Assembly: GCF_020520425.1 (NCBI RefSeq)
Contig: NC_079492.1
Coordinates: 141,364,361 to 141,428,360, forward strand
Length of the DNA stretch: 64,000 bases
Direction: 5' to 3'
Source: Spinacia oleracea
Taxonomy: Eukaryota; Streptophyta; Magnoliopsida; Caryophyllales; Amaranthaceae
Under the pieces are notes generated by a model. That model saw only the letters and a program-made list of their open reading frames with translations, was not told the origin of the DNA and searched no databases. The translations under genes were made by a program, and so were the position numbers. Of this stretch, positions 5,940 to 54,184 are shown one piece after another. Every line of letters begins with the position of its first letter. Within the stretch, counting starts at the first letter, position 1.

Positions 5940-5948
5940 TATATAAAG
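5940..5948 (+). promoter_or_regulatory. TATA box of the intronless lectin gene
   Basis: tatataaag about 175 bp upstream of the ATG at 6124. It is conserved in the other arm on the minus strand (42826-42818). Confidence 0.5.
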
Positions 5949-6123
5949 CTTTATAATATTGTCCACTGATATACTTCGTACGTACTTCTATAACAAGCTA
6001 GCCAGGAAGTTTTCATTTACCATTGGAAAAAAGCTCATCCCTTGGCTTGTTCCCCCACTCTTAGTCTTACCTCCAAAAAAAAAAAAAAGAAAAAAAAGGC
6101 AATTGAAAGAAAAGAAAAAGAAA

Positions 6124-7614
6124 ATGGTAGCATCATTGCCACTTTGTGCAGCAATATTATCAAACAAGAACAACAAATACTTAAGTTATGTAAAAGAAGG
6201 GAAAACACATAAGCATCTTCGTTTTTCCGGCGAGGAGATCGTGAGCAGATCCACAAAGTTCGCGATAGAGAGGTCGAGCAAAGAAGACGACGAAAACACA
6301 GAGCTGGTTCACTTGCGATGTTGCCACAACAATAAGTACTTGGTTAAGAAATCTGAAGCTGAAGGTTGGATTATTGCAGCTGCTGAAAAGCCAGAAGAAG
6401 ATGAATCAGTTTGGTCATCCACACTGTTTGAGCCTATCATCGTTGAAAGCCATGATGGTTATGGCCGAACAGTCCTTCGATTCAAGCATGTTCAATCCCA
6501 ACTTTATGCTTCTTTGAGCAAAGATGACGACGACGATGATGATGATGATGATGATGATAGCCTCTCAAAATGCTTACAATTGAGGCAAGAAATAGAAGAT
6601 GTTATAAACTCAAGTGATGTGGTAACAATCATAGATTGGGGCACACTTGTCATTTTGCCAAAACGTGTTGCCTTCAAAAGCAGTAGTGATGGAAAATACC
6701 TTGTCGATGATCAGAGAAGTAGTGCTCATCCTTGTATTCGATCATCTGTCGACAAGAAAGATGATGCTCGTGTTATCCATGAGGTGTACACCAACCCTGA
6801 TGGTACCCTTTCTATCAAGAGCTCTGACGCAGATGGGTTTTGGACATCTCACGAAGGTGGCGAAATCGATGTCGAGCCATTTGCTGATAATACTAGTGAG
6901 CAGAAATTAGCAACTATGGAAATTAAAAAAGGGATTTTCCAAACATTTGTGCCCATCAAAATTTCCTCCAACGAAATTGCCCTTCGTGGGTTGCCGCTCA
7001 ACAAATTTTGCCTCATCGATGGTACCTCGAAAGAGCTCGTTTGTAAGGCGAATTCGATTTTACGAGAGACAAAATTTGTGGTGGAAGAGGTAGTAATTTC
7101 AAGAGAAGTTAGCAACATCGAGTATCACCTCGACGATGCTAGGATCTACGACGAGGCAACCGTGGTGTTATCAACTAATATAATTCATAATACATCAGAA
7201 AATGCTTTCACAACCGAATACTCGTTTAGATTTGTAGACAAGAGAATTAGTAGATGGACAAATGGTGGTTCATTGAGTTTAGGTGTTCCAGTCAACATCA
7301 AATCAGCTGGTATTCCATTGATAACCGAAAACGGTATCGTAATCTCAGGTGAGTTTACCGGAACATATGAATGGGGTGAGAGTAAGACTGAAACAAATGA
7401 AAAGGAAATGACATACAACACAAGTGTGCCGCCAATGACACAAGCCACAATTCGACTTGTTTCGACTAGTGGTACGTGTGATGTACCATTTTCGTATTCA
7501 GTTCGAGAGGTTCATGTTGATGGCAAAACAGTTGTGTATACCATGGATGATGGTTTGTACACTGGTATCAATTTCTACAAGTTGCAAACCCAGATGGAGA
7601 CTAAACCAATCTAG
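6124..7614 (+). CDS. Amaranthin-like lectin with aerolysin-like domain (intronless copy A)
   Basis: 496-residue protein with two agglutinin (beta-trefoil) domains at about residues 1-165 and 175-320, then an aerolysin-like domain from about 325 to the end. Shared motifs are IDWGTLVILP between the lectin domains, SREVSNIEYHLDDARIYDE at the start of the pore-forming module, and YEWGESKTE and SVPPMTQATI near its end. An upstream ATG at 5959 is in frame but is rejected: the inverted copy has no open frame there, the leader is a poly-A/lysine-like UTR, and MVASLPLCAA matches the N-termini of the other copies. There is no signal peptide. Residues 134-145 are 12 consecutive Asp from a GAT/GAC repeat (7 in copy B). 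The single-exon structure contrasts with the split genes at 1674 and 46254. The family binds GalNAc-type glycans; this copy's specificity is unknown. Confidence 0.9.
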   Translation: MVASLPLCAAILSNKNNKYLSYVKEGKTHKHLRFSGEEIVSRSTKFAIERSSKEDDENTELVHLRCCHNNKYLVKKSEAEGWIIAAAEKPEEDESVWSSTLFEPIIVESHDGYGRTVLRFKHVQSQLYASLSKDDDDDDDDDDDDSLSKCLQLRQEIEDVINSSDVVTIIDWGTLVILPKRVAFKSSSDGKYLVDDQRSSAHPCIRSSVDKKDDARVIHEVYTNPDGTLSIKSSDADGFWTSHEGGEIDVEPFADNTSEQKLATMEIKKGIFQTFVPIKISSNEIALRGLPLNKFCLIDGTSKELVCKANSILRETKFVVEEVVISREVSNIEYHLDDARIYDEATVVLSTNIIHNTSENAFTTEYSFRFVDKRISRWTNGGSLSLGVPVNIKSAGIPLITENGIVISGEFTGTYEWGESKTETNEKEMTYNTSVPPMTQATIRLVSTSGTCDVPFSYSVREVHVDGKTVVYTMDDGLYTGINFYKLQTQMETKPI

Positions 7615-22593: not shown

Positions 22594-22940
22594 TGAAGAC
22601 ATTGCTGTATTTTGCTTAATGAAGTAACACAAAGCAACTGCACCAACCCAGCATTTCATTCATTCGGCTTACCCTTAAAATGAGCAAGCAAGGCTGCTTA
22701 TATACAACCCTAGAGATTTACTACAACCAATAGGAATAAGGACAGCTAGCCTAGATAGAGAATCAACCTAGAAGTTACAAAAGACAACTAGGACCAATCA
22801 TAAAATGCCACGAATAACTGACAAAAACGGCTAGAAAAGTACACAATCACATGCACATAATTCCTACAATTTAGGCTGAGATGGGCTTCATTGCTGGCTG
22901 AGTTGGGCTTCATTACTTGGCTCAGTGGCCTATCTTCAAT
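22594..22940 (-). repeat. 3' LTR of the copia element
   Basis: In element (minus) orientation this is the downstream LTR. It begins right after the polypurine tract, and the polyprotein stop codon TGA overlaps its first bases. Confidence 0.9.
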
Positions 22941-25900
22941 ACTCCCCCTCAAGCTGAGAGTGAGAAGTCTGAACTCCCAGCTTGGATAGAAGGTGGTTAT
23001 GCTGATGTGTAGGCAGCAGTTTAGTGAAAACATCTGCAAGTTGTTGAGATGAGGGAATGTAGCTAGGTTGGATTAGACCTTCAGCATCTTTTTCTCTGAT
23101 AAAGTGACAGTCAATATCAACATGCTTAGTCTTCTCATGATGAACAGGATTAGCTGCAATGGCAATTGCTGCCTGATTGTCACAGTTGATTTGAGTTGTG
23201 TTTGAGTGTTTGATTCCCAAATCTCTCAGCAGTTGTTTAAGCCACATTACTTCACAAACAGTCAAGGCCATTGATCTGTATTCTGCTTCAGCACTGCTTC
23301 TTGCAACAACACTTTGTCTTTTTGATTTCCATGAGATAAGTGATTCACCCAATAGGATGCAGAAACCAGATGTGGATCTTCTGGTTGAGGGACATCCTGC
23401 CCAATCACTGTCACAGTAAGCAGTGAGTTGAGCATTGGATTTTCTTGAGAGTAAAATGCCTTGATCTGTACTGTTTGCTAGATATCTCAGTACTCTTCTT
23501 GCTGCCTGCATATGGACATTTGTTGGTTTGTGCATGAATTTGCTCAAAACATGAACTGTGTAGGCAATGTCAGGCCTAGTCAAGGTGAGATAAATAAGCT
23601 TTCCAACCAATTTCTGATAAGCTTCTGGATTGTCAAGCACATCTCCCACATCTGCAGTTAGCTTGGAGTGACTGTCCATGGGAAGTTTGAGTGGCCTGCA
23701 GTTTTTCATCTTGTATTCTTCAAGAAGATCAAAATTATACTTCTTTTGAGAGAGAAATATTCCTTGTTGAGATCTGTCCACCTCAATCCCAAGAAAGTAT
23801 CTGAGTTCACCCATGTCTTTCATGTGGAATTGAGAGGAGAGGAAAGTTTTTGTGTCATTAATGGCTTGCATGTCATTTCCAGCCAGAACCAGATCATCAA
23901 CATACACTAGAATGACAGTGAATGACTTTCCAGTTTGTTTGGTGAACAATGAGTAGTCAGATTTTGATTGAGTGAACTGAAAACTCTTTAGATCCTCACT
24001 TAGCTTGGCAAACCATTGTCTGGGAGCTTGTTTGAGACCATATAAGGACTTCACAAGTTTGCACACCTTGTTAGGATTGTGTTGTGAGTGCTCCCCCTCT
24101 CCTTGAATCACAATTCTTCCCCCTTTGCCACAGTAGCCAGGAGGGAACTTCATGTAAATAGTCTCCTGCAAATCACCATGAAAAAAGGCATTCTTAACAT
24201 CCATTTGGTGAACATACCAGTCTTCTAAAGATGCTACAGCAAGTAATGATCTCACAGTTGCCATTTTGGCTACTGGGGCAAAAGTTTCTTCATAGTCTAC
24301 ACCATATCTTTGTCTGTTTCCTAACACAACAAGTCTGCATTTGTCTCTTTCCACCCTACCATCCCTGTGAAACTTGGTTCTGTACAACCATTTGCACCCA
24401 ATAGCTGTCTTACCAGGTGGTAGGTCAGTAATTTCCCAAGTATTGTTTGTTTCTAAGGCATCTAGTTCTTCATTCATAGCATCTACCCATCTCTTGTGTT
24501 TTATAGCTTCTTTGTAATTGGTTGGGACTGTGTTCTTAATGATTTTGGCTAGAAAACAGAAGAAGTCATAGGTGGTTTGGGTGTGAATAAGATTTTGGAT
24601 TTTGGAAGGTTCAATCAGACAAGCATAGTTGGCTACATGATAATCACTGTGCCAGCTTGGTGGTTTATGAGATCTTGTGGATTTTCTGGTGGGGATAGGT
24701 AATGGTGTTTGTGTTTGAGGTGATGGTTGTGTTTGAGGTGGTGAGTGTGTTTGAGGTGGTGTAGGTGGTTCCTGATTATCAGGTGGAGTGATGTCATTTC
24801 CATAGTCAGTCCAATCACTGCAGGTAGGGGTAGTTTGTGGGTTTCTGGCTGTTTGTGGCTTGAGAATTTTGTATGGAAAGACATGTTCAAAGAACTTCAC
24901 ATCTCTGCTGACAAACACTATGTTGTTTGTCAAATTAAGCAACTTATACCCCTTTTGAGTGATAGGGTAGCCCAACATTAGGCATGGTACACCCCTTTCT
25001 TGGAACTTATCAGTCAGTCTACTTGGGTTACTAGCCATAGCAAGACAACCAATGGATTTTAAATTGTCATATGAGGGAAGAGTTTTGTGAAGTACCTCAT
25101 ATGGGGTTTTGTTGTCTAGCACTGTGCTTGGAAGCCTGTTGGTGATATACACTGCAGCAAGTACACAATCTCCCCAAAAATAAAGTGGCAATCCCCCTTG
25201 GAATCTCAAAGCTCTAGCCATCTCAAGTAAGTTTCTATGTTTTCTTTCAGCTCGACCATTTTGTTGTGGTCTTTTGACACATGATGTCTGATGTATGATG
25301 CCTAACTTATCAAAGAAGGGTCTGCATTGTTGATTATCATCAAACTCCAGGGCATTGTCAGACCTGATAACCTTTACTTTCTTGTTGAATTGAGTTTTGC
25401 ACATATTGACAAAGGTTTGTATGGCTTGAAATGCATCTGATTTTTGCTTGAGAAGGTGCACCCATGTTACTCTAGAGTGATCATCAACCACAGTAAGAAA
25501 GTACCTGTGATTTCCTCTAGTTTTCACCTTGTATGCATTCCAGATATCTATATGAACAAGTTCAAATAGATCTTTTGCTCTGGATTTGCTGCTGTTGTAT
25601 GGCAGCTTAGTGAATTTTGCCATGGGACATGTGACACACACATCATTACACTTGTCCTTGAGTCCTTGCAGGCAAGGGATTTTTGCTATTTTCTGCAGAG
25701 GTGTATGGCCTAGTCTGTGGTGCCACAAGGTTGTCTCACTCAGAGGTGTAATACTGGATATAGTTGCTGGCAACTCAAATGTAGGTGGGCATGTTTCAGC
25801 AGTCATTGCCTTGCCACATTGAGTTCCAGTGTACTGAGTTGACATTGCCCTCTTCAGATCAGTCACTATTTCTTGAAGAGGTTTGTTCACAAGATAATAC

Positions 25901-27339
25901 AAACCATGTTCAGCTTTGCCAATCCCTATAATGGCTTCAGTGTTAGTGTCCTGAATGACACAGAAGTTAGAGTAAAAGTTCACTTTACACTGAGTATCTG
26001 TGGCAAGTTTCTGCACAGATAGAAGATTGTGTTTGAATTCAGGCACATAGGGAACATTGGATAGGTTCAACCCATTTTCCAGTTTCACCTTCCCACAGTG
26101 TGAGATGATTGATGTGTGACCAGTGGGGAGGTTGATCTTTGGCTCATTTTTGCTCTTCTCTGCATACTGCAACATTTCAAAGCTTCCAGTCATGTGATCT
26201 GAAGCTCCTGAGTCAATTATCCATTCAGTTCTCACAAAGTCTGCATGATGACAGCTCACCATACCAGCATAACTCATGTCAAATTCATCCTCCAAGTCTG
26301 ATTGACTTGCCTTAGATGGGGTTGGAAGAAGTCTCATAAGTTGTTCAAGTTGTTCAGCTGTAAACATAGTGGGTTGTTGAACACTTGAGTTTGAGCTACT
26401 GGTGCCACCTTGCACATTTGCAGCTGTTCTGCCACCTCCTCTTCCATTTCTACCTCTTGACCATCTTCCACCCCTTGTGTTATTTCCATAGTCTCTCCCT
26501 TTTCCTCTCTGATCTTTGTCTTTTTGACCCTTTGGATGCCAGCTAGGAAACCCTACCACTGTCCAACATTTGTCTCTAGAATGCCCAGTTCTGCCACATG
26601 CTGAGCAGTTTTCATCAGTTCCCTTGCTGTACATGGCAAGTGGTTCTGTTTCTTCCTTGACAGGTTTAAGAATCTCTCTTTGAGACTCTTCTTGTTGCAA
26701 TGCACTGCAAGCAGAATCAACAGATGGCAAGGTACTCATCATCAGGAGATTGCTTCTCAATCCTCCATATGCATCATCTACACCATTCAAAAACTGAAAT
26801 AGCTTTTGTTCTTCCTGTTGTTGATTCAGAGCATTAATGAAAGCATTGATCTCAGTGGTCATAGAAGTTATAGGTGGGTATGTGTGAAGGGAATCAAGTT
26901 CCTCCCACAGGCCTCTCAGATCTGTGTAGTAATCTGTAATAGGTTTGCCCTGTTGTTTCATCTCATAAATTTGCTTATTCAGTTTATACTTTCTTGACCC
27001 ATTTGTCACAGAATACCTTTGATCAAGTTGTTTCCATATTTGAGCAGCATTTGTCCCAAACATAACTGACTTCTTTATATTTTCAGTGACATTACCAATG
27101 ATCCATGAGATCACCATGTTGTTACAAGTGTCCCAATGCTCTTGTTTTACAGTATCAGTGGTGTCTCTTACAACTACACCAGTCAAAAATCCTAGCTTTC
27201 TTTTTGCTGCTAGAGTGATTTCAAAAGATCTCTTCCAAGATCTATAGTTAGAAGCCCCCTGAAGTTTTTCTACAACTACTGAGGTGCTCCCATCAGAAGG
27301 GTGCAAGTATAGAGGACTAGTGGTTTCTATGGTTGTCAT
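22936..27339 (-). CDS. Copia gag-pol polyprotein, intact
   Basis: 1467-residue single-frame polyprotein. In order: a UBN2/copia-type gag region (about residues 20-225), zinc knuckle CSACGRTGHSRDKC (about 243-257), aspartic protease WIIDSGASDHM (about 371), a GAG-pre-integrase HHCC motif with LWHHRLGHT (about 537) and CVTCPMAK, a DDE integrase (D in HIDIWNAYK, D in VIRSDNALEF, E in NGRAERKHR), RVT_2 reverse transcriptase with YVDDLVLAG (about 1146), and RNase H with DSDWAGC, SSAEAEYRSM and DNQAAI. All key catalytic residues are present and there is no stop or frameshift. The last codons overlap the polypurine tract and the TGA lies within the 3' LTR. Integrase preceding reverse transcriptase identifies Ty1/copia. 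Confidence 0.95.
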   Translation of the reverse strand: MTTIETTSPLYLHPSDGSTSVVVEKLQGASNYRSWKRSFEITLAAKRKLGFLTGVVVRDTTDTVKQEHWDTCNNMVISWIIGNVTENIKKSVMFGTNAAQIWKQLDQRYSVTNGSRKYKLNKQIYEMKQQGKPITDYYTDLRGLWEELDSLHTYPPITSMTTEINAFINALNQQQEEQKLFQFLNGVDDAYGGLRSNLLMMSTLPSVDSACSALQQEESQREILKPVKEETEPLAMYSKGTDENCSACGRTGHSRDKCWTVVGFPSWHPKGQKDKDQRGKGRDYGNNTRGGRWSRGRNGRGGGRTAANVQGGTSSSNSSVQQPTMFTAEQLEQLMRLLPTPSKASQSDLEDEFDMSYAGMVSCHHADFVRTEWIIDSGASDHMTGSFEMLQYAEKSKNEPKINLPTGHTSIISHCGKVKLENGLNLSNVPYVPEFKHNLLSVQKLATDTQCKVNFYSNFCVIQDTNTEAIIGIGKAEHGLYYLVNKPLQEIVTDLKRAMSTQYTGTQCGKAMTAETCPPTFELPATISSITPLSETTLWHHRLGHTPLQKIAKIPCLQGLKDKCNDVCVTCPMAKFTKLPYNSSKSRAKDLFELVHIDIWNAYKVKTRGNHRYFLTVVDDHSRVTWVHLLKQKSDAFQAIQTFVNMCKTQFNKKVKVIRSDNALEFDDNQQCRPFFDKLGIIHQTSCVKRPQQNGRAERKHRNLLEMARALRFQGGLPLYFWGDCVLAAVYITNRLPSTVLDNKTPYEVLHKTLPSYDNLKSIGCLAMASNPSRLTDKFQERGVPCLMLGYPITQKGYKLLNLTNNIVFVSRDVKFFEHVFPYKILKPQTARNPQTTPTCSDWTDYGNDITPPDNQEPPTPPQTHSPPQTQPSPQTQTPLPIPTRKSTRSHKPPSWHSDYHVANYACLIEPSKIQNLIHTQTTYDFFCFLAKIIKNTVPTNYKEAIKHKRWVDAMNEELDALETNNTWEITDLPPGKTAIGCKWLYRTKFHRDGRVERDKCRLVVLGNRQRYGVDYEETFAPVAKMATVRSLLAVASLEDWYVHQMDVKNAFFHGDLQETIYMKFPPGYCGKGGRIVIQGEGEHSQHNPNKVCKLVKSLYGLKQAPRQWFAKLSEDLKSFQFTQSKSDYSLFTKQTGKSFTVILVYVDDLVLAGNDMQAINDTKTFLSSQFHMKDMGELRYFLGIEVDRSQQGIFLSQKKYNFDLLEEYKMKNCRPLKLPMDSHSKLTADVGDVLDNPEAYQKLVGKLIYLTLTRPDIAYTVHVLSKFMHKPTNVHMQAARRVLRYLANSTDQGILLSRKSNAQLTAYCDSDWAGCPSTRRSTSGFCILLGESLISWKSKRQSVVARSSAEAEYRSMALTVCEVMWLKQLLRDLGIKHSNTTQINCDNQAAIAIAANPVHHEKTKHVDIDCHFIREKDAEGLIQPSYIPSSQQLADVFTKLLPTHQHNHLLSKLGVQTSHSQLEGEY

Positions 27340-27509
27340 TGTTCTATTTTAGACTCAGACCTTGGTGTACACTGAACCACACAGCAAGATATTCACCAAA
27401 GTTTGAAGCTTTATCAATCAGACTATGCTAAGCATGCATTCAAGCTACTGCTGTATGAAATATGTATTGTTTAGAAGGATAATACCTGAACCTGGTTGCT
27501 CTGATACCA

Positions 27510-41149: not shown

Positions 41150-42643
41150 TTATATTGGTTTAGTCTCCATCTGGGTTTGCAACTTGTAGAAATTGATACC
41201 AGTGAACACACCATCATCCATGGAATACACAACTGTTTTGCCATCAACATGAACCTCTCGAACTGAATACGAGAATGGTACATCACAAGTACCGCTACTC
41301 GAAACCAGACGAATTGTTGCTTTCGTCATTGGCGGCACACTTGTGTTATATGTCAACTCCTTTTCATTTGTTTCAGTTTTACTCTCACCCCATTCATATG
41401 TTCCGGTGAACTGATCACCTGAGATTTCGATACCATTTTCAGTTATGAATGGAATGCCTGCTGATTTGATGTTTACTGGAACACCTAAACTCAATGAACC
41501 ACCATTTGTCCATCTACTAATTCTCTTGTCTACAAATCTAAACGAGTATTCGGTGGTGAAAGCATTTTCTGATGTATTATGAATTATATTAGTTGATAAC
41601 ACCACGGTTGCCTCGTCGTAGATCCTAGCATCGTCGAGGTGATACTCGATGTTGCTAACTTCTCTTGAAATTACTACCTCTTCCACCACAAATTTTGTCT
41701 CTCGTAAAATCGAATTCGCCTTACAAACAAGCTCTTTTGAGCTACCATCGATGAGACAAAATTTGTTGAGCGGCAACCCACGAAGGGCAATTTCGTTGGA
41801 GGAAATTTTGATGGGCAAAAATGTTTGGAAAATCCCTTTTTGAATTTCCATAGTTGCTAATTTCTGCTCATCAGTGTTAGTACTATCTGCAAATGGCTCG
41901 ACATCGATTTCGCCACCTTCGTGGGATGTCCAAAACCCATCTGCGTCACAGCTCTTGATAGACAGGGTACCGTCAGGGTTTGTGTACACCTCATGGATCA
42001 CACGAGCATCTTCTTTGTCGTCGACAGATGATCGAATACAAGGATGAGCACTACTTCTCTGATCATCAGAGCTCGTCACAAGGTATTTTCCATGAGTGGT
42101 GCTTTTGAAGGCAACACGTTTTGGCAAAATGACAAGAGTGCCCCAGTCTATGATTGTCACCACATCACTTGAGTTGATAACATCTTCTACTTCTTCCCTC
42201 AACTGTAAGCATTTTGAGAGGCTATCATCATCATCATCATCATCTTTGCTCAAAGAAGCATAAAGTTGGGATTGAACATGCTTGAATCGAAGGACTGTTC
42301 GGCCATAACCATCATGGTTTTCAACGATGATAGGCTCAAACAGTGTGGATGACCAAAGTGATTCATCTTCTTCTGGCTTTTCAGCAGCTGCAATGATCCA
42401 ACCTTCAGCTTCAGATTTCTTAACCAAGTACTTATTGTTGTGGCAACATCGCAAGTGAACCAGTTCCGTGTTTTCGTCGTCTTCTTTGCTCGACCTCTCT
42501 ATTGCGAACTTTGTGGATCTGCTCACGATCTCCTCGCCGGAAAAACGAAGATGCTTATGTGTTTTCCCTTCTTTTACATAACTTAAGTATTTGTTGTTCT
42601 TGTTTGATAATATTGCTGCACAAAGTGGCAATGATGCTACCAT
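41150..42643 (-). CDS. Amaranthin-like lectin with aerolysin-like domain (intronless copy B)
   Basis: 497 residues. Close paralogue of copy A (6124-7614) in inverted orientation, with the same two-agglutinin plus aerolysin-like layout and an intact frame. Start is MVASLPLCAA at 42643; the in-frame ATG seven codons upstream lies in the A-rich leader and is not favoured. Differences from A include a 7-Asp tract (12 in A), a 3-residue insertion after GKYLV, a 2-residue insertion near STNTDEQ, a 1-residue insertion (GDQFTG), and about a dozen substitutions such as V/L, S/N, K/Q and Y/F. A 32-bp insertion at the stop changes the last codon-stop pair from ATC TAG to ATA TAA without altering the terminal Ile. 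A conserved TATA (minus 42826-42818) lies upstream. Both copies look functional. Confidence 0.9.
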   Translation of the reverse strand: MVASLPLCAAILSNKNNKYLSYVKEGKTHKHLRFSGEEIVSRSTKFAIERSSKEDDENTELVHLRCCHNNKYLVKKSEAEGWIIAAAEKPEEDESLWSSTLFEPIIVENHDGYGRTVLRFKHVQSQLYASLSKDDDDDDDSLSKCLQLREEVEDVINSSDVVTIIDWGTLVILPKRVAFKSTTHGKYLVTSSDDQRSSAHPCIRSSVDDKEDARVIHEVYTNPDGTLSIKSCDADGFWTSHEGGEIDVEPFADSTNTDEQKLATMEIQKGIFQTFLPIKISSNEIALRGLPLNKFCLIDGSSKELVCKANSILRETKFVVEEVVISREVSNIEYHLDDARIYDEATVVLSTNIIHNTSENAFTTEYSFRFVDKRISRWTNGGSLSLGVPVNIKSAGIPFITENGIEISGDQFTGTYEWGESKTETNEKELTYNTSVPPMTKATIRLVSSSGTCDVPFSYSVREVHVDGKTVVYSMDDGVFTGINFYKLQTQMETKPI

Positions 42644-42817
42644 TTTCTTTTTCTTTTCTTTCAATTGCCTTTTTTTTTCTTTTTTTTTTTTGGAGGTAAG
42701 ACTAAGAGTGGGGGAACAAGCTAAGGGATGAGCTTTTTTTCAAAGGTAAATGAAAACTTCCTGGCTAGCTTGTTATAGAAGTACGTACGAAGTATATCAG
42801 TGGACAATATTATAAAG

Positions 42818-46253: not shown

Positions 46254-49130
46254 ATGGCGAGTTCATTGCCAGTGGCAGCAGTAATTTCAGAAAACAGAAC
46301 CCCGCAAAATCACTTGACATACAGCAAAAGAGAAGGAGGGGGGAATCTGTATTTTGAATCGTTCGACATAACGAGTCCGAAGGTAAAGTTTTTTATAGAG
46401 AGGAGCAGTAACAACAACAACCGAATGGTAATGGTGCATCTTCGCTGTTTTCACAACAACAGGTACTTAGTTAGGGAGTCTGAAACATCGCATTGGATAA
46501 ATGCAGACGCCAATGAAGTAGAAGAAGATACATCTCGATGGTCTTGCACACTTTTTGCTGTCGAAAATTTAACCCCCGGTGATCCAAATTTGCCACTTTG
46601 GACCACAACAAGACTCAGGTTTAGGCATGTCCAATCTGGTGCTTTCTTGTACGGTTATCTTCATCAAGGTATACATACTTCAATTTGTACTCTCTCCGGC
46701 TTAAAAATAAATAAATAAATAAAACTCCAATTGGATAATCTTCAAAAGACGGAGGGAGTAACACTACCTTATGACGTCAAATTTCGTTCAATTAATAAGC
46801 AAGAAAAAGTAAGGTGTAATTTATATTTAGAAACGGGGTGCATATATACTAACAAGATTGACAGCTATTGTATTATTAATTTCAAAAAAAATTATCAGGT
46901 TTTTTTTTTCTGAGCGGTCCAGTGGAAGATCCTCCCATGCATGTTTGAATTAAAAGCAAAGTAATTTATTATTTATGTTTAGGCTCCGTTATATTGGACT
47001 TATTTTGACTGAACTTATATTATCCGGACTTATTTGATTTTAACTTAACTTAACTGAAATTATTTGAACATGTATGAACTATTCTGAACTTATTTTATCT
47101 GAAATAAGTCAAAATAAGTCGTATAGAACAAAGACTTAATGTGTTTATCCGATCCGATCCTTTGGTTGATCAGGTAGCGGTACATCACGAATTCGTAGAC
47201 TTGGCATATACGTACAGGGCGAGAGCGGCGCTTCCAGCAATCCGACGTTATGGATTCGAATGACGGATTGGGAGTTGTTGACGATATTGCCGGAAGTGGT
47301 GGCCTTCAAAGGCAGCAATGGCAGATACTTGGCTACTGTGAGAAGGCAGAATATTCCTAACTGGGATCAAAACACACATCATTTGCAGTTTAGTAGCAAT
47401 GATATTGGTGATGAGGCAGTGCGGTTTGAGTTGGATAGTAATAATTTCAGGCACGATGGACTCATCCGCATCAGAAGCCTTCTCCGCGATTTTCGGCCTA
47501 CTCATGGATTTTGGAGATCCAACGGACAAAACAGGTATTTCCTTTTAAGATGACGTTTTATTTTATTTTACGCGTATGAGCCACGAGGGTAATATAAGCT
47601 ATAAATGGGGGTGGGGGGATTCGAACCTGAGACCTATTGTTCACATGCGCTCAGGGAAACATCAAGGGGGTCTTATCTTAAGACTTTGCTCATATGTCAT
47701 GTCAGCTTTCCACTAATATTTAATTAATTAAATTTTGTTAGCACTTCTCAAGACTCTTTCAAATTTAGTTCTTCACCCCTCAAACTCATATAAAGCATAT
47801 CAAATAATATAACATTTTAATTAATTTATTTTATTTAACTCACATATTGAGTCTTAAGTTGAGTCTTAGTTTTTCAAGACTCGATTTAAGACTTTGTTAA
47901 AACTAACTCACTTCAATGCTTCAAATTGATATGTCTGATCTTAAGACTACGTGAGTCATATGCCATGTCAGCAAAGTTCAAATCTTAAGACTTGGCGCTG
48001 ATGTTGCTCTCAGTCTTAACCAGTAGGTCAAGACATCATTGAGATGACGTTTTATGTTTGTCAATTAATGCATAATTTGGACGGTTACTTCGTAATATTT
48101 TTAAGATAATTTGTTTTTTATCACCTTTAAAATGCACAATTTTTGCTAGAGTAGTCATTTCAATAAAAGATCATACGTTCTTTCCGTTGATTTTTTCTCT
48201 CATGCCGATTATGATGCATTTATAATAATCTAAAAGTTGGAAAAAAAAAAAAAAAAGATCTTACGCGTACCTGATGTACAATAGATCTATTGTACAACGT
48301 TATAATTTTTACCCCTTTTGATAACTTTTAATATGATTTGGTTAACTTAATATTAATATGAAGTAATTTTTGGGGCATGAACTTTTTAAAAGAAAATGTC
48401 AATTCTCTAAAATGACCCTTGATGTGCATGTTTGATTAGGGAAATCGTGGTAAGCACCAGCCTAGCCGGAACCGATTTTCGAGGCGTAAAAGTTGATGAT
48501 GCTGATATGGCTTTCGACGGTGGACTTTGTTATAGTCGGCGATTCCCTAATAATGTGCTTCATTTGGGTACTGAAACAACAATTACAAGAGAGGCCATAG
48601 TTAGAGTAGAAGAGCCAGTTCTTTCAAGACAAGTTTATAATGTGAATTATCGCCTTGAAGATGCTAGGATTTATGATCAAACTCCCATTGTGTTGGCTTC
48701 TTTCCCAGTTACTAATAATTCACAAACTGAGTTGGTCAGAACCATCGGGTTTAATTACGAGGATAAAACAGAAACTACTTGGAATGCCTTTCTTTCCTTT
48801 CATCTTGGTGTAAGAATAAGGATTCGAGCAGGGAAACCATTAATATTTGGTGCTAGTATCCAAATAAATGCAACTTTTGATGCAGAATATGAATGGGGGG
48901 AAACTAAAACTGAAACTATAACTCTAACGGATTCTGCCACCATACGTGTGCCGCCGATGAGTAGTGTGGTGGCCAGACTAGTCGCCACCCGAGGAAGATG
49001 TGATATACCTTTCTCTTATACTGTGCGCGACGTCCTTACTACTGGCCAAACCCGTATTTCTCAAGTTGATGGCGGTGTTTTCAATGGCGTTAACAATTAC
49101 AACATTGATCTTACCGTGGATCCAGCTTAG
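46254..49130 (+). CDS. Amaranthin-like lectin with aerolysin-like domain (three-exon copy)
   Basis: Exons 46254-46668, 47174-47534 and 48440-49130. Introns 46669-47173 and 47535-48439 are both GT-AG, and the frame is kept through phase 1 and phase 2 junctions. 489 codons including the stop. The first exon starts MASSLPVAAVIS and encodes most of agglutinin domain 1. Exon 2 crosses the domain junction (WELLTILPEVVAFKG) without an intron there, unlike the gene at 1674. Exon 3 finishes domain 2 and carries the aerolysin-like domain (VEEPVLSRQVYNV, DARIYDQ, YEWGETKTE, VPPMSSVVARL). No signal peptide. Both introns contain MITE-type repeats. Exon borders are inferred from frame continuity and alignment with the intronless paralogues; an exon-extending ORF past 46668 is intron read-through. 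Confidence 0.87.
46690..46758. mobile_element. Short Stowaway-like MITE in lectin gene 4 intron 1
   Basis: Ends ctctctccggc and gacggagggag flanked by TA; 69 bp. Confidence 0.6.
46981..47140. mobile_element. MITE-like inverted repeat in lectin gene 4 intron 1
   Basis: Left gttatattggacttattttg and right (reverse complement) gttctatacgacttattttg form imperfect terminal repeats. The interior is AT-rich (gaacttat repeats). Confidence 0.5.
47649..48020. mobile_element. MITE in lectin gene 4 intron 2
   Basis: gggaaacatcaagggggtct...taagact at the left and (reverse complement) gagagcaacatcagcgccaa...taaga at the right. Aagactta-type motifs recur internally. Just upstream, 47597-47645 has a B-box-like ggttcgaatcccc on the minus strand. 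Confidence 0.55.
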
Positions 49131-52064: not shown

Positions 52065-52462
52065 AATGTCACGTTACATTGCGTATTTGCGTGAATGTTA
52101 ATATATAGATCAAATGTTCAATAGACCAAGAAAAACCTAGCTAGCTAGGAACCAATGGACTTAATTTCGGAAACTTAACTTAGGTAAAAGTCCAACTATA
52201 GAATTTACAATTAGACAGGGTTTATTACTTCCTAAGGTAGTGTTCTCTTCACCTGAATTTCACAATGTCACGTTACATTGCGTATTTGCGTGAATGTTAA
52301 TATATAGATCAAATGTTCAATAGGCCAAGAAAAACCTAGCTAGCTAGGAACCAATGGACTTAATTTCGGAAACATAACTTAGGTAAAAGTCCAACTATAG
52401 AATTTACAATGCGACAGAGTTTATTACTTCCTAAGGTAGTGTTCTCTTCACCTGAATTTCAC
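52065..52462. repeat. 199-bp tandem duplication
   Basis: aatgtcacgttacattgcg...cacctgaatttcac occurs at 52065-52263 and again at 52264-52462 with only a few substitutions. Confidence 0.9.
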
Positions 52463-52620
52463 TTATCTTATCTTATTGGCCCTGAACTTATGTTATTTTA
52501 TCTTATCTTATCTTATCTTATCTTATTGAAACTTATAGTATTACCTTATGTAATATTTACATTACCTTACCTTATCTTATCATATTAACCCTGAACTTAT
52601 CTTATCTTATTGACCCTTAT
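52463..52620. repeat. (CTTAT)n pentamer repeat
   Basis: Runs of ttatcttatcttatc interrupted by tgaacttat and gacccttatg. Confidence 0.75.
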
Positions 52621-52624
52621 GTAA

Positions 52625-54184
52625 AAAAATCTAGAAATATGATTGTAAATTATAATCTAGAATAATCTTAGGAAATGTCTAGAATTATCCTAAGAAAAAT
52701 CTAGTTAGAAAAATCTAGATAAATGACAAGTGTAGAAAAATCTAGATATTAGGATACAACCAATATAAATAGGTTATATGTGCATAAATTGAGAGGTGAG
52801 TCAATCAAGAGAGCTCCCACAAATATGAGGGGTAGAAACATGGGTTCTACCAAAGAGATAAGTGAGAGACATAAGCTCTCGCAAATATTGTTGTACAATT
52901 CTTATTAATGTAATCAATGATAAAATACAATTTTGTTATATTATTCTAGTCCATCAAAACTTTCGCTTGCGTCCTCAAATTTCTATCAGGGTATCAGAGC
53001 CGGAAAAGTGATTACGACAAAATTCAAGATCGAAGACCCAACACATGAAGGGTTACAAGATTTGAAGAAAATATGGAGGAGAAAAGAGGTAAGTTCTAAA
53101 TCTAAAATTTCTTAAAGAATAACAAATATGGGAAAATTAAACTAGAAGAATTTATGGAGGAAAATGGAGAAAAATAAAGTTGATGATAAAAATGAGAAAT
53201 GGTGGAAAAAGCTGAAGAAGAAAATATGTTTGGAAGAAGAAATTATTTGAAGGATGCTAATGACAAGGGCATTATCAGAGTACATTGGTGGAAAAAAAAA
53301 AGGAAAGAAAAACAAAATTCACAAAGAGAATTTTGGAGTTTGCTAATGATATGAGCATTAGCAGTGCTAAGTGGTGACATGAGCACCACAACAAAAGAAA
53401 AATCTGGAGAAACAAATGACATTGGAGCAAGTTGGTAACAAGGGTACCAACACAAAGAGTTGAAAATATGCAAGATGTGAAGAAGAAGAAAATTGTTGGG
53501 ATGGTTGGTGACATGAGCACCAATAACAAAATAAAATTTGAAGAAAAATTTCAGGAAGAGACGTACTGGTGGTGACATGTGCATCAGTGGGATAGTAGGT
53601 AACATGGATACCAACGAGAAGATGATCAAGACTAATAAAACGTATCGAGAATGTGAAGGTTGGTAACACGGGTGCTAACATTGGAACTCAAGCGTTCATA
53701 TCGTTTGGTGGTTGGTGACAAGTGCATCAACGAGATTTTCGAAAGATAAACATTTTGGAGTACAAGATTTTTCAAGATTAAGGGGGAGTGTTAAAATATT
53801 AATCTAGAAAAATCTAGATAATATGTTTGTAAAAATCTAATAGTGAAATATATTGTGTAGAAAAATCTAGAAATATGATTGTAAATTATAATCTAGAATA
53901 ATCTTAGGAAATGTCTAGAATTATCCTAAGAAAAATCTAGATAAATGACAAGTGTAGAAAAATCTAGAAATTAGGATACAACCACTATAAATAGGTTGTA
54001 TGTGCGTAAATTGAGAGGTGAGTCAATCAAGAGAGTTCCCACAAATATGAGGGGTAGAAACAAGGATTTTACCAAAGAGATAAGTGAGAGACATAAGCTC
54101 TCACAAATATTGTTGTACAATTCTTATTAATAAAATCAATGATAAAATACAATTTTGTTATATTATTCGGGTCCATCAAAACTT
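52625..54184 (+). mobile_element. Non-autonomous copia-type LTR element with a stem-loop array
   Basis: Left LTR 52625-52988 lacks about 90 bp of its 5' part. The primer-binding region gggtatcagagccgg (initiator-Met type) follows at 52989. The polypurine tract aagggggag is at 53780-53788 and the right LTR starts tgttaaaatatt at 53789. The LTRs match closely (ctctcacaaatattgttgt etc.; TATA ctataaatagg at 53984), but the last ~25 bp of the right LTR are missing. The ~790-bp interior has no gag or pol ORF; instead it carries nine small hairpins, described separately. Confidence 0.8.
53255..53731 (+). other. Array of nine stem-loops with constant 7-nt loop and covarying stems
   Basis: Stem/loop/stem units at 53255-53277, 53341-53363, 53371-53389, 53431-53451, 53504-53524, about 53569-53586, 53595-53615, 53659-53679 and 53711-53731. 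Loops are 7 nt: acaaggg, atatgag, acatgag, acaaggg, acatgag, acatgtg, acatgga, acacggg, acaagtg. Stems change in a pairing-preserving way: TGCTAATG/CATTAGCA, GTGGTG/CACCAC, GTTGGTA/TACCAAC, GTTGGTG/CATCAAC (one G-U), GTTGGTA/TGCTAAC (two G-U). Units are not in a common reading frame. Seen directly; function is unknown. Confidence 0.75.

Follow-up and report, generated by a model that had tools for sequence, protein, structure and literature searches.

The window analysed here, a 64,000-nt stretch of the Spinacia oleracea genome, contains an LTR element with both LTRs truncated, spanning positions 52617-54184 (Table 1). A 199-nt unit present twice in direct orientation, its copies 97% alike, adjoins the element on the 5' side (52065-52462) and is followed by TTATC-rich repeats. 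Elsewhere in the window, Pfam domains of the agglutinin type were detected in two genes and an aerolysin-like domain in one (5947-7614 (+), 41150-42739 (-) and 48423-49130 (+)), which we take to be an amaranthin-like lectin cluster. At 22936-27348 (-), the domains of a copia gag, integrase and reverse transcriptase are united in a single 1470-codon open frame; the LTR element described here, by contrast, is damaged. Its two LTRs are 91.6% alike over 346 nt, within the 85.9-99.3% spanned by LTR pairs that align over 140 nt or more. The primer binding site is presumably of the initiator-tRNA-Met type. No coding frame is common to the window element and its copies, and the window as a whole has no match to an Rfam family (hammerhead, 5S etc.) at gathering score.

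Table 1. Features of the LTR element, in window coordinates
Feature	Position	Strand	Remarks
5' LTR	52617..52988	+	~62 nt missing at start, judged against other copies; matches the 3' LTR and LTRs elsewhere
LTR hairpin R1	52831..52851, again 54053-54073	+	GGTAGAA-ACATGGG-TTCTACC
LTR hairpin R2	52862..52882, again 54084-54104	+	GTGAGAG-ACATAAG-CTCTCGC
Primer binding site GGTATCAGAGCC	52989..53001	+	motif also behind the LTR of L032, L065, L066, L068, L071, L073
Hairpin H1	53256..53276	+	5 inner pairs, then mismatch
Hairpin H2	53342..53362	+	9 bp including flanking pairs; doublet with H3
Hairpin H3	53370..53390	+	doublet with H2
Hairpin H4	53431..53451	+	present in the subfamily of the window copy
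Hairpin H6	53504..53524	+	
Hairpin H7	53568..53588	+	doublet with H8; 5 inner pairs, then mismatch
Hairpin H8	53595..53615	+	private A-A mismatch after 4 pairs
Hairpin H9	53659..53679	+	
Hairpin H10	53711..53731	+	
Polypurine tract AAGGGGGAG	53780..53788	+	motif also precedes the 3' LTR in nearly all copies
3' LTR	53789..54184	+	~35 nt missing at end, judged against other copies

All nine hairpins with a shared 7-nt loop that the sequence-only reading had placed at 53255-53731 were found, at 53256-53731. Its observation that the stems differ and yet stay paired also holds: in six of the nine, 6-9 uninterrupted pairs stand beside the loop, and in the other three (H1, H7 and H8) the stem is interrupted by one mismatch after four or five pairs. 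In 28 of 34 copies, the H8 stem runs for 6-7 pairs without interruption. In their majority form, the twelve unit types combine a purine-pyrimidine closing pair with a 7-nt loop A-C-A-N-G-N-R, the exception being a tenth internal unit, H5, the loop of which is AAAAGAG in many copies.

Stems of at least 6 bp with a 7-nt loop number ten in 53255-53731 (six with the motif loop and four with another), whereas 2000 first-order Markov sequences average 1.2 and never exceed 6; when the loop is given any other size between 3 and 14, the same interval holds 1 to 6 stems. The folding energy of 53240-53745 is -106.5 kcal/mol versus -91.5 (sd 5.4) for shuffled sequences (z -2.8), with 1 of 100 shuffles equally good. 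When hairpins with a stem of at least 5 and a loop at most one mismatch away from ACAWGRG were counted over the whole 64 kb, the plus strand yielded 13 (array 8, LTRs 4, elsewhere 1) and the minus strand 3. A covariance model of the unit, trained on 12 hairpins (11 of them window-derived), recognised 13 units in the window, all inside the element; 11 of these are recovered by construction, the two units of the 3' LTR are not, and the single next match in the window is at chance level (E 0.28). A further hairpin at 53313-53335 (loop ACAAAGA) was rejected as a unit, having a stem of at least 6 in only 8 of 30 copies and a C-G closing pair. A scan of IMG/VR with one degenerate 22-nt unit gave no matches.

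Beyond the nine hairpins noted before, two more of the same design, R1 and R2, were identified in the LTR. R1 is present in 69 of 80 LTR-side segments, with all seven pairs intact in 50, and R2 in 57 of 80, with all seven intact in 40; 5' and 3' segments were counted separately here, and 18 possible solo LTRs and a few LTR-less segments are included. Some copies have lost R2 through deletion. Both hairpins lie downstream of a TATA-like CTATAAATAGG and are thus probably within the transcribed part.

Copies were searched for in the 894-Mb assembly (242 contigs) with the window segment 53200-53800, which gave 45 matches at 34 places (best 40 of 111 candidates). The 33 places other than the window comprise 29 array-only loci and four loci (L031-L034) with a different 5' half. 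Array-only elements have LTRs of ~430 nt and an internal region of ~800 nt, ~1.6 kb in total, and their complement of units varies. H5, absent from the window copy, occurs in many copies; H4, present in the window copy, is missing from most copies that bear H5; and three loci (L009, L012 and L015) carry extra units at both the H4 and the H5 places. Units often form doublets, as judged from consecutive intact loops being 27 or 28 nt apart in 72 of 231 distances (40 rows). Array-only copies commonly hold 7-10 intact internal units, up to 10-11 in one copy, versus 6 or fewer in the gag-bearing relatives described below. The internal region is interrupted by a foreign insert in the array-only copy L028 and in the pair L046/L037 (~1.4 kb and 10 kb). 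In a search with the LTR, 16 of 30 loci showed an LTR without a match to the internal region of the window element.

Among the four loci with a different 5' half, L032 and L033 carry a copia-type gag and L031 a 199-nt gag remnant; in L034, a ~170-nt tandem repeat unrelated to gag (939-1656) stands immediately 5' of the hairpin array. A search with the Gag sequence (best 150 of 9620 candidates) yielded L065-L068. In the six gag-bearing relatives (L032, L033 and L065-L068), the array lies directly 3' of gag, where pol would be, and in L032 H5 begins ~20 nt past the gag stop. At E values up to 5, unit matches numbered 6 each in L032, L065, L067 and L068 and 4 each in L033 and L066, several of them weak. 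The polypurine tract follows the array in five of the six, L066 being interrupted; past the tract, an LTR was recognised in L032, L033, L065 and L067, and in L068 for its first ~30 nt only. Gag without pol is seen between both LTRs in L032 and L033, and from primer site to polypurine tract in L065 and L068; the gag of L067 is partial. The copia-type Gag domain PF14223, reported by Pfam in L065 and L032, places the coding relatives in the copia superfamily; two CX2CX4HX4C motifs in the Gag were recognised by eye, not by Pfam. The gag+array copies are old, with frames broken in several, and their Gag differences (9 shared versus 89 singleton) are uninformative on selection.

Across 76 loci, gag was matched in the six gag-bearing relatives, L031 and L069, and pol in L069 alone; neither gave a match in the array-only loci. 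The first 190-200 nt of the LTRs of L032, L033 and L065 resemble array-only LTRs (for example those of L027, L071, L072 and L073), and no hairpin units were found in the LTRs of these three gag-bearing elements. Besides the array, the two classes have in common the primer site, the polypurine tract and part of the LTR. One locus with LTRs of the gag+array type 2.7 kb apart (L070, G000:C3:5865100-5868600) was rejected as an array carrier, its interior being of another, repeat-rich kind with no unit.

L069, the one gag-pol relative examined, is a copia element whose gag, integrase and reverse transcriptase domains are spread over more than one frame. Its LTRs are 97.9% alike (234 nt aligned), its Gag has 46% identity, and no hairpin units were found in it. 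In the main aligned block, Gag differences from L069 fall 27/22/50 by codon position. The closest Gag outside the gag+array class among the best 150 of 9620 candidates is 47% identical and located on C5. No gag-pol element carrying the array was present among the best 40 each of 111, 448, 195 and 99 candidates or among the best 150 of 9620 Gag candidates. An autonomous relative that codes through the array, which the sequence-only reading had named as a finding that would refute it, was likewise not found in this limited search: the six gag relatives keep the hairpins and L069 has none. The proposal that a structured RNA module occupies the position of gag and pol in a non-autonomous LTR element is supported, and a protein-encoding relative has the module too.

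The pairing within units was assessed among the 12 paralogous hairpins. Of 84 cells, 95.2% are paired, compared with 75.8% in shuffles; 19 cells are two-sided versus 6.5 in shuffles, with two-sided changes in six of the seven pairs, and the covariation score is 0.742 versus 0.351. None of 500 shuffles was as high on any of these three measures, and pairing falls to 25-60% when the partner is shifted by 1-3 columns; further pair types are not unusually numerous (105 of 500 shuffles). If the hairpins are homologous, this covariation between paralogs represents compensatory change; otherwise, it represents convergence on one design. The check put forward by the sequence-only reading, covarying pairs across genomic copies, failed. 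Unguided, RNAalifold draws H5-H9 on 25 copies with a covariation term of -0.23, and 1 of 58 pairs is two-sided in any of these copies. Among 1979 stem cells at the ten array sites, 142 differ from the majority pair, of which 86 break it and 2 are two-sided (unit-less rows, 17 for H4 and 11 for H5, were dropped first, followed by 23 of 296 poorly matching rows); R1 and R2 contribute three two-sided cells. Covariation across copies of one site is almost nil because the copies are too alike.

Minor letters amount to 0.056 per cell in stems and 0.048 in loops, compared with 0.089 in the array linkers. Stems and loops are thus conserved to about the same degree, and the decay of stems under preserved loops that the earlier reading had regarded as fatal to it is not seen. 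In tests of constraint, which involve small numbers and related copies, the ratio of inherited variants (those in three or more copies) to singletons, which are mostly post-insertion, is 25:83 in hairpins versus 92:168 in array linkers (nine sites in 29 rows, using columns of at least 20 letters; p 0.027). The same contrast gives p 0.040 for stems alone and p 0.30 for loops alone. With two-copy variants left out, all 3 shared stem variants of the array still pair, compared with 23 of 91 singletons (p 0.019); in R1 and R2, only 3 of 8 shared variants keep pairing.

As to strand, G-U pairs occur in the majority stems on the sense strand in H2 and H5 (outermost pair in both), H6, H7, H9, H10 and R2, and no majority stem has an A-C mismatch on that strand. 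Stem probability is 0.61 sense versus 0.49 antisense (102 hairpins in 12 sequences); some units hardly fold in context, and the overall stem probability is about 0.6. Single stem mutations include 26 distinct changes to G-U versus 19 to A-C, an excess that is not significant (p 0.37), as expected if most mutations arose after insertion. Overall, an RNA structure of the array is well supported.

We tentatively propose that the array constitutes a set of multivalent recognition sites for a particle protein, most likely the Gag of the gag+array elements, so that array-bearing RNAs would be packed. In this scheme, RNA would be the functional form of the array: the sense RNA would bear roughly twelve copies of a single unit, in which a short stem, free in sequence, presents the loop A-C-A-N-G-N-R, and a protein of the RNA-carrying particle would bind these loops, the units acting together. 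The most plausible such protein is the Gag of the gag+array relatives, in which gag is followed by six units and pol is absent. RNAs bearing the array could then be packed and reverse-transcribed even when they encode nothing. The array-only elements, which have no gag and bear two further units in the LTR, would have kept and enlarged the array; a larger number of units may improve packing and help these elements to compete for particles. We consider a particle-binding site the most economical reading because the array is shared by both classes, lies behind gag in one of them and is enlarged where Gag is gone. Gag is the leading candidate ligand by analogy: retroviral Gag binds unpaired purines within a stem-loop (PMC8096270), coat proteins are likewise described as binding unpaired purines or loop motifs (PMC8096270, PMC7612645), and for several viruses assembly is held to proceed on numerous stem-loops that have a loop motif in common (PMC7612645). 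The Gag of this lineage presumably needs no units in general, since the related Gag of L069 serves a unit-less element.

Since pol is missing from both classes, it would have to be supplied from elsewhere, so that the units may instead recruit Pol or a host factor, a serious rival, if on balance an unlikely one. The hairpins would then be real RNA structures read by a host RNA-binding protein, in export, stability or a translation block, or by the Pol of an autonomous element recruited in trans. This would fit the position of the array exactly at the place of pol, the absence of pol from all six gag+array elements and the retention of the array without gag in the array-only class; a role in the translation of gag, however, would leave the array in gag-less elements unexplained.

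It is improbable that the array is merely a by-product without present function, left by a palindromic unit that multiplied through duplication or template switching in reverse transcription. The doublets H2H3 and H5H6 do resemble duplicates, and 68 of the 91 singleton stem variants break their pair. Such an origin does not readily account, however, for at least five unlike stems that share a loop, including two in the LTR, for the two-sided changes between paralogs or for the smaller share of inherited changes in hairpins.

A coding explanation, in which the repeats are or were a peptide repeat of VGDMSTN-like heptapeptides, has in its favour that H5-H8, and often H3 too, share an open frame in many copies (loop spacings 27, 57 and 27). 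The frame is intact in 13 of 25 copies, and several copies have frames of 84-115 aa. The earlier statement that the units are mutually out of frame therefore applies to H9, H10 and others, which lie in other frames, and not to H5-H8. With hairpins and spacings fixed and linkers simulated, however, the H5-H8 frame was open in 11.5% of cases anyway, and the other two frames never. Variants by codon position in this frame (shared 5/3/7, singletons 22/18/29) show no clear third-position excess, and within the loop it is the second letter of codon ANG that varies, the third codon letters staying constant. R1 and R2, moreover, lie in the LTR, searches with the H5-H8 peptide gave no scored relative in the protein collection and nothing in PDB, and a peptide repeat would leave the palindromic stems unexplained. 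Protein coding by the array is thus unlikely, and we regard the heptapeptide explanation as very improbable. A frame conserved on the minus strand, 143 aa long in the window, was also rejected, its length and frame varying between copies. Least credible is loop-loop pairing, in which CAUG-containing loops would drive RNA dimerisation or condensation with no protein reader: many loops contain the self-complementary CAUG (ACATGAG, ACATGTG, ACATGGA), but those of H1, H4, H5, H9, H10 and R1 are mostly ACAAGGG, ACAAGAG, ACACGGG or ACAAGTG, which lack it and keep the other letters.

If Gag is indeed the reader of the loops, the array would be to retrotransposons what dispersed packaging signals are to viruses, and a contest between helper and parasite could be legible from unit number. 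It is conceivable, though we would not call it likely, that the elements form a two-tier system: a gag-only element marks its RNA with the hairpin array, a packaging code of its own, a coding-less satellite retains nothing but this code, enlarges it and thereby rivals its helper for particles, and a third element supplies pol. As part of this system, the unit may perhaps evolve under selection for loop and pairing rather than for stem sequence. To our knowledge, the choice of RNAs for packaging among non-autonomous plant LTR elements is largely an open question, and short units with one loop, in Gag-encoding and coding-less elements alike, make it testable with 21-nt RNAs and one protein.

In having LTRs, a primer site, a polypurine tract and no coding capacity, the array-only loci resemble TRIM and LARD elements, including Cassandra. 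TRIMs have LTRs of a few hundred bp and are under ~1.5 kb long; the array-only element, at ~1.6 kb in total, is at or above this limit. TR-GAG elements are defined by LTRs and gag without pol, a hairpin array behind gag not being known as part of the kind. L032, L033, L065, L066 and L068 resemble them (with L066 interrupted and the gag of L067 partial), whereas the window element has no gag. Elements of the TRIM/LARD type specify well-conserved RNA secondary structures and form tandem arrays (PMC7215508), and tandem TRIMs have been reported (PMC4717578); here, the structure consists of short units arrayed under a common loop motif and is present in a gag-only element as well. Gag-only elements are a known kind, and so are non-autonomous elements that form tandem arrays and conserve an RNA structure. 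The terms 'hairpin', 'secondary structure' and 'stem' are absent from a TRIM survey (PMC4717578), and 'hairpin', 'stem-loop' and 'TR-GAG' from a study of spinach repeats (PMC6337768). Within the literature searched, mostly outside subscription journals, no multi-unit loop-motif hairpin array common to a gag-only element and coding-less relatives was found.

The multi-site packaging signals of viruses (STNV, enterovirus, hepatitis B virus) likewise comprise multiple stem-loops that have a loop motif in common but differ in their stems, thought to bind capsid protein collectively (PMC7612645, PMC3593212, PMC7793301). Viral signals, however, are scattered through coding genomes, whereas the present array is located in non-coding RNA of a retrotransposon and its binding is putative. 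Ty RNA is packaged by Gag (PMC4974528). The packaging signals of retroviruses and of Ty1/Ty3 consist of few sites near the 5' end, unlike the array of one unit seen here. Retrozymes, Helenus and Ajax are also non-autonomous LTR elements with an RNA part; in contrast to them, the window has no Rfam family at gathering score. Among the array-only loci, L021 (G000:C5:114883700-114893600) contains eight internal regions head to tail, separated by LTRs with a period of ~1157 nt, a multiplication resembling that reported for Cassandra and other TRIMs.
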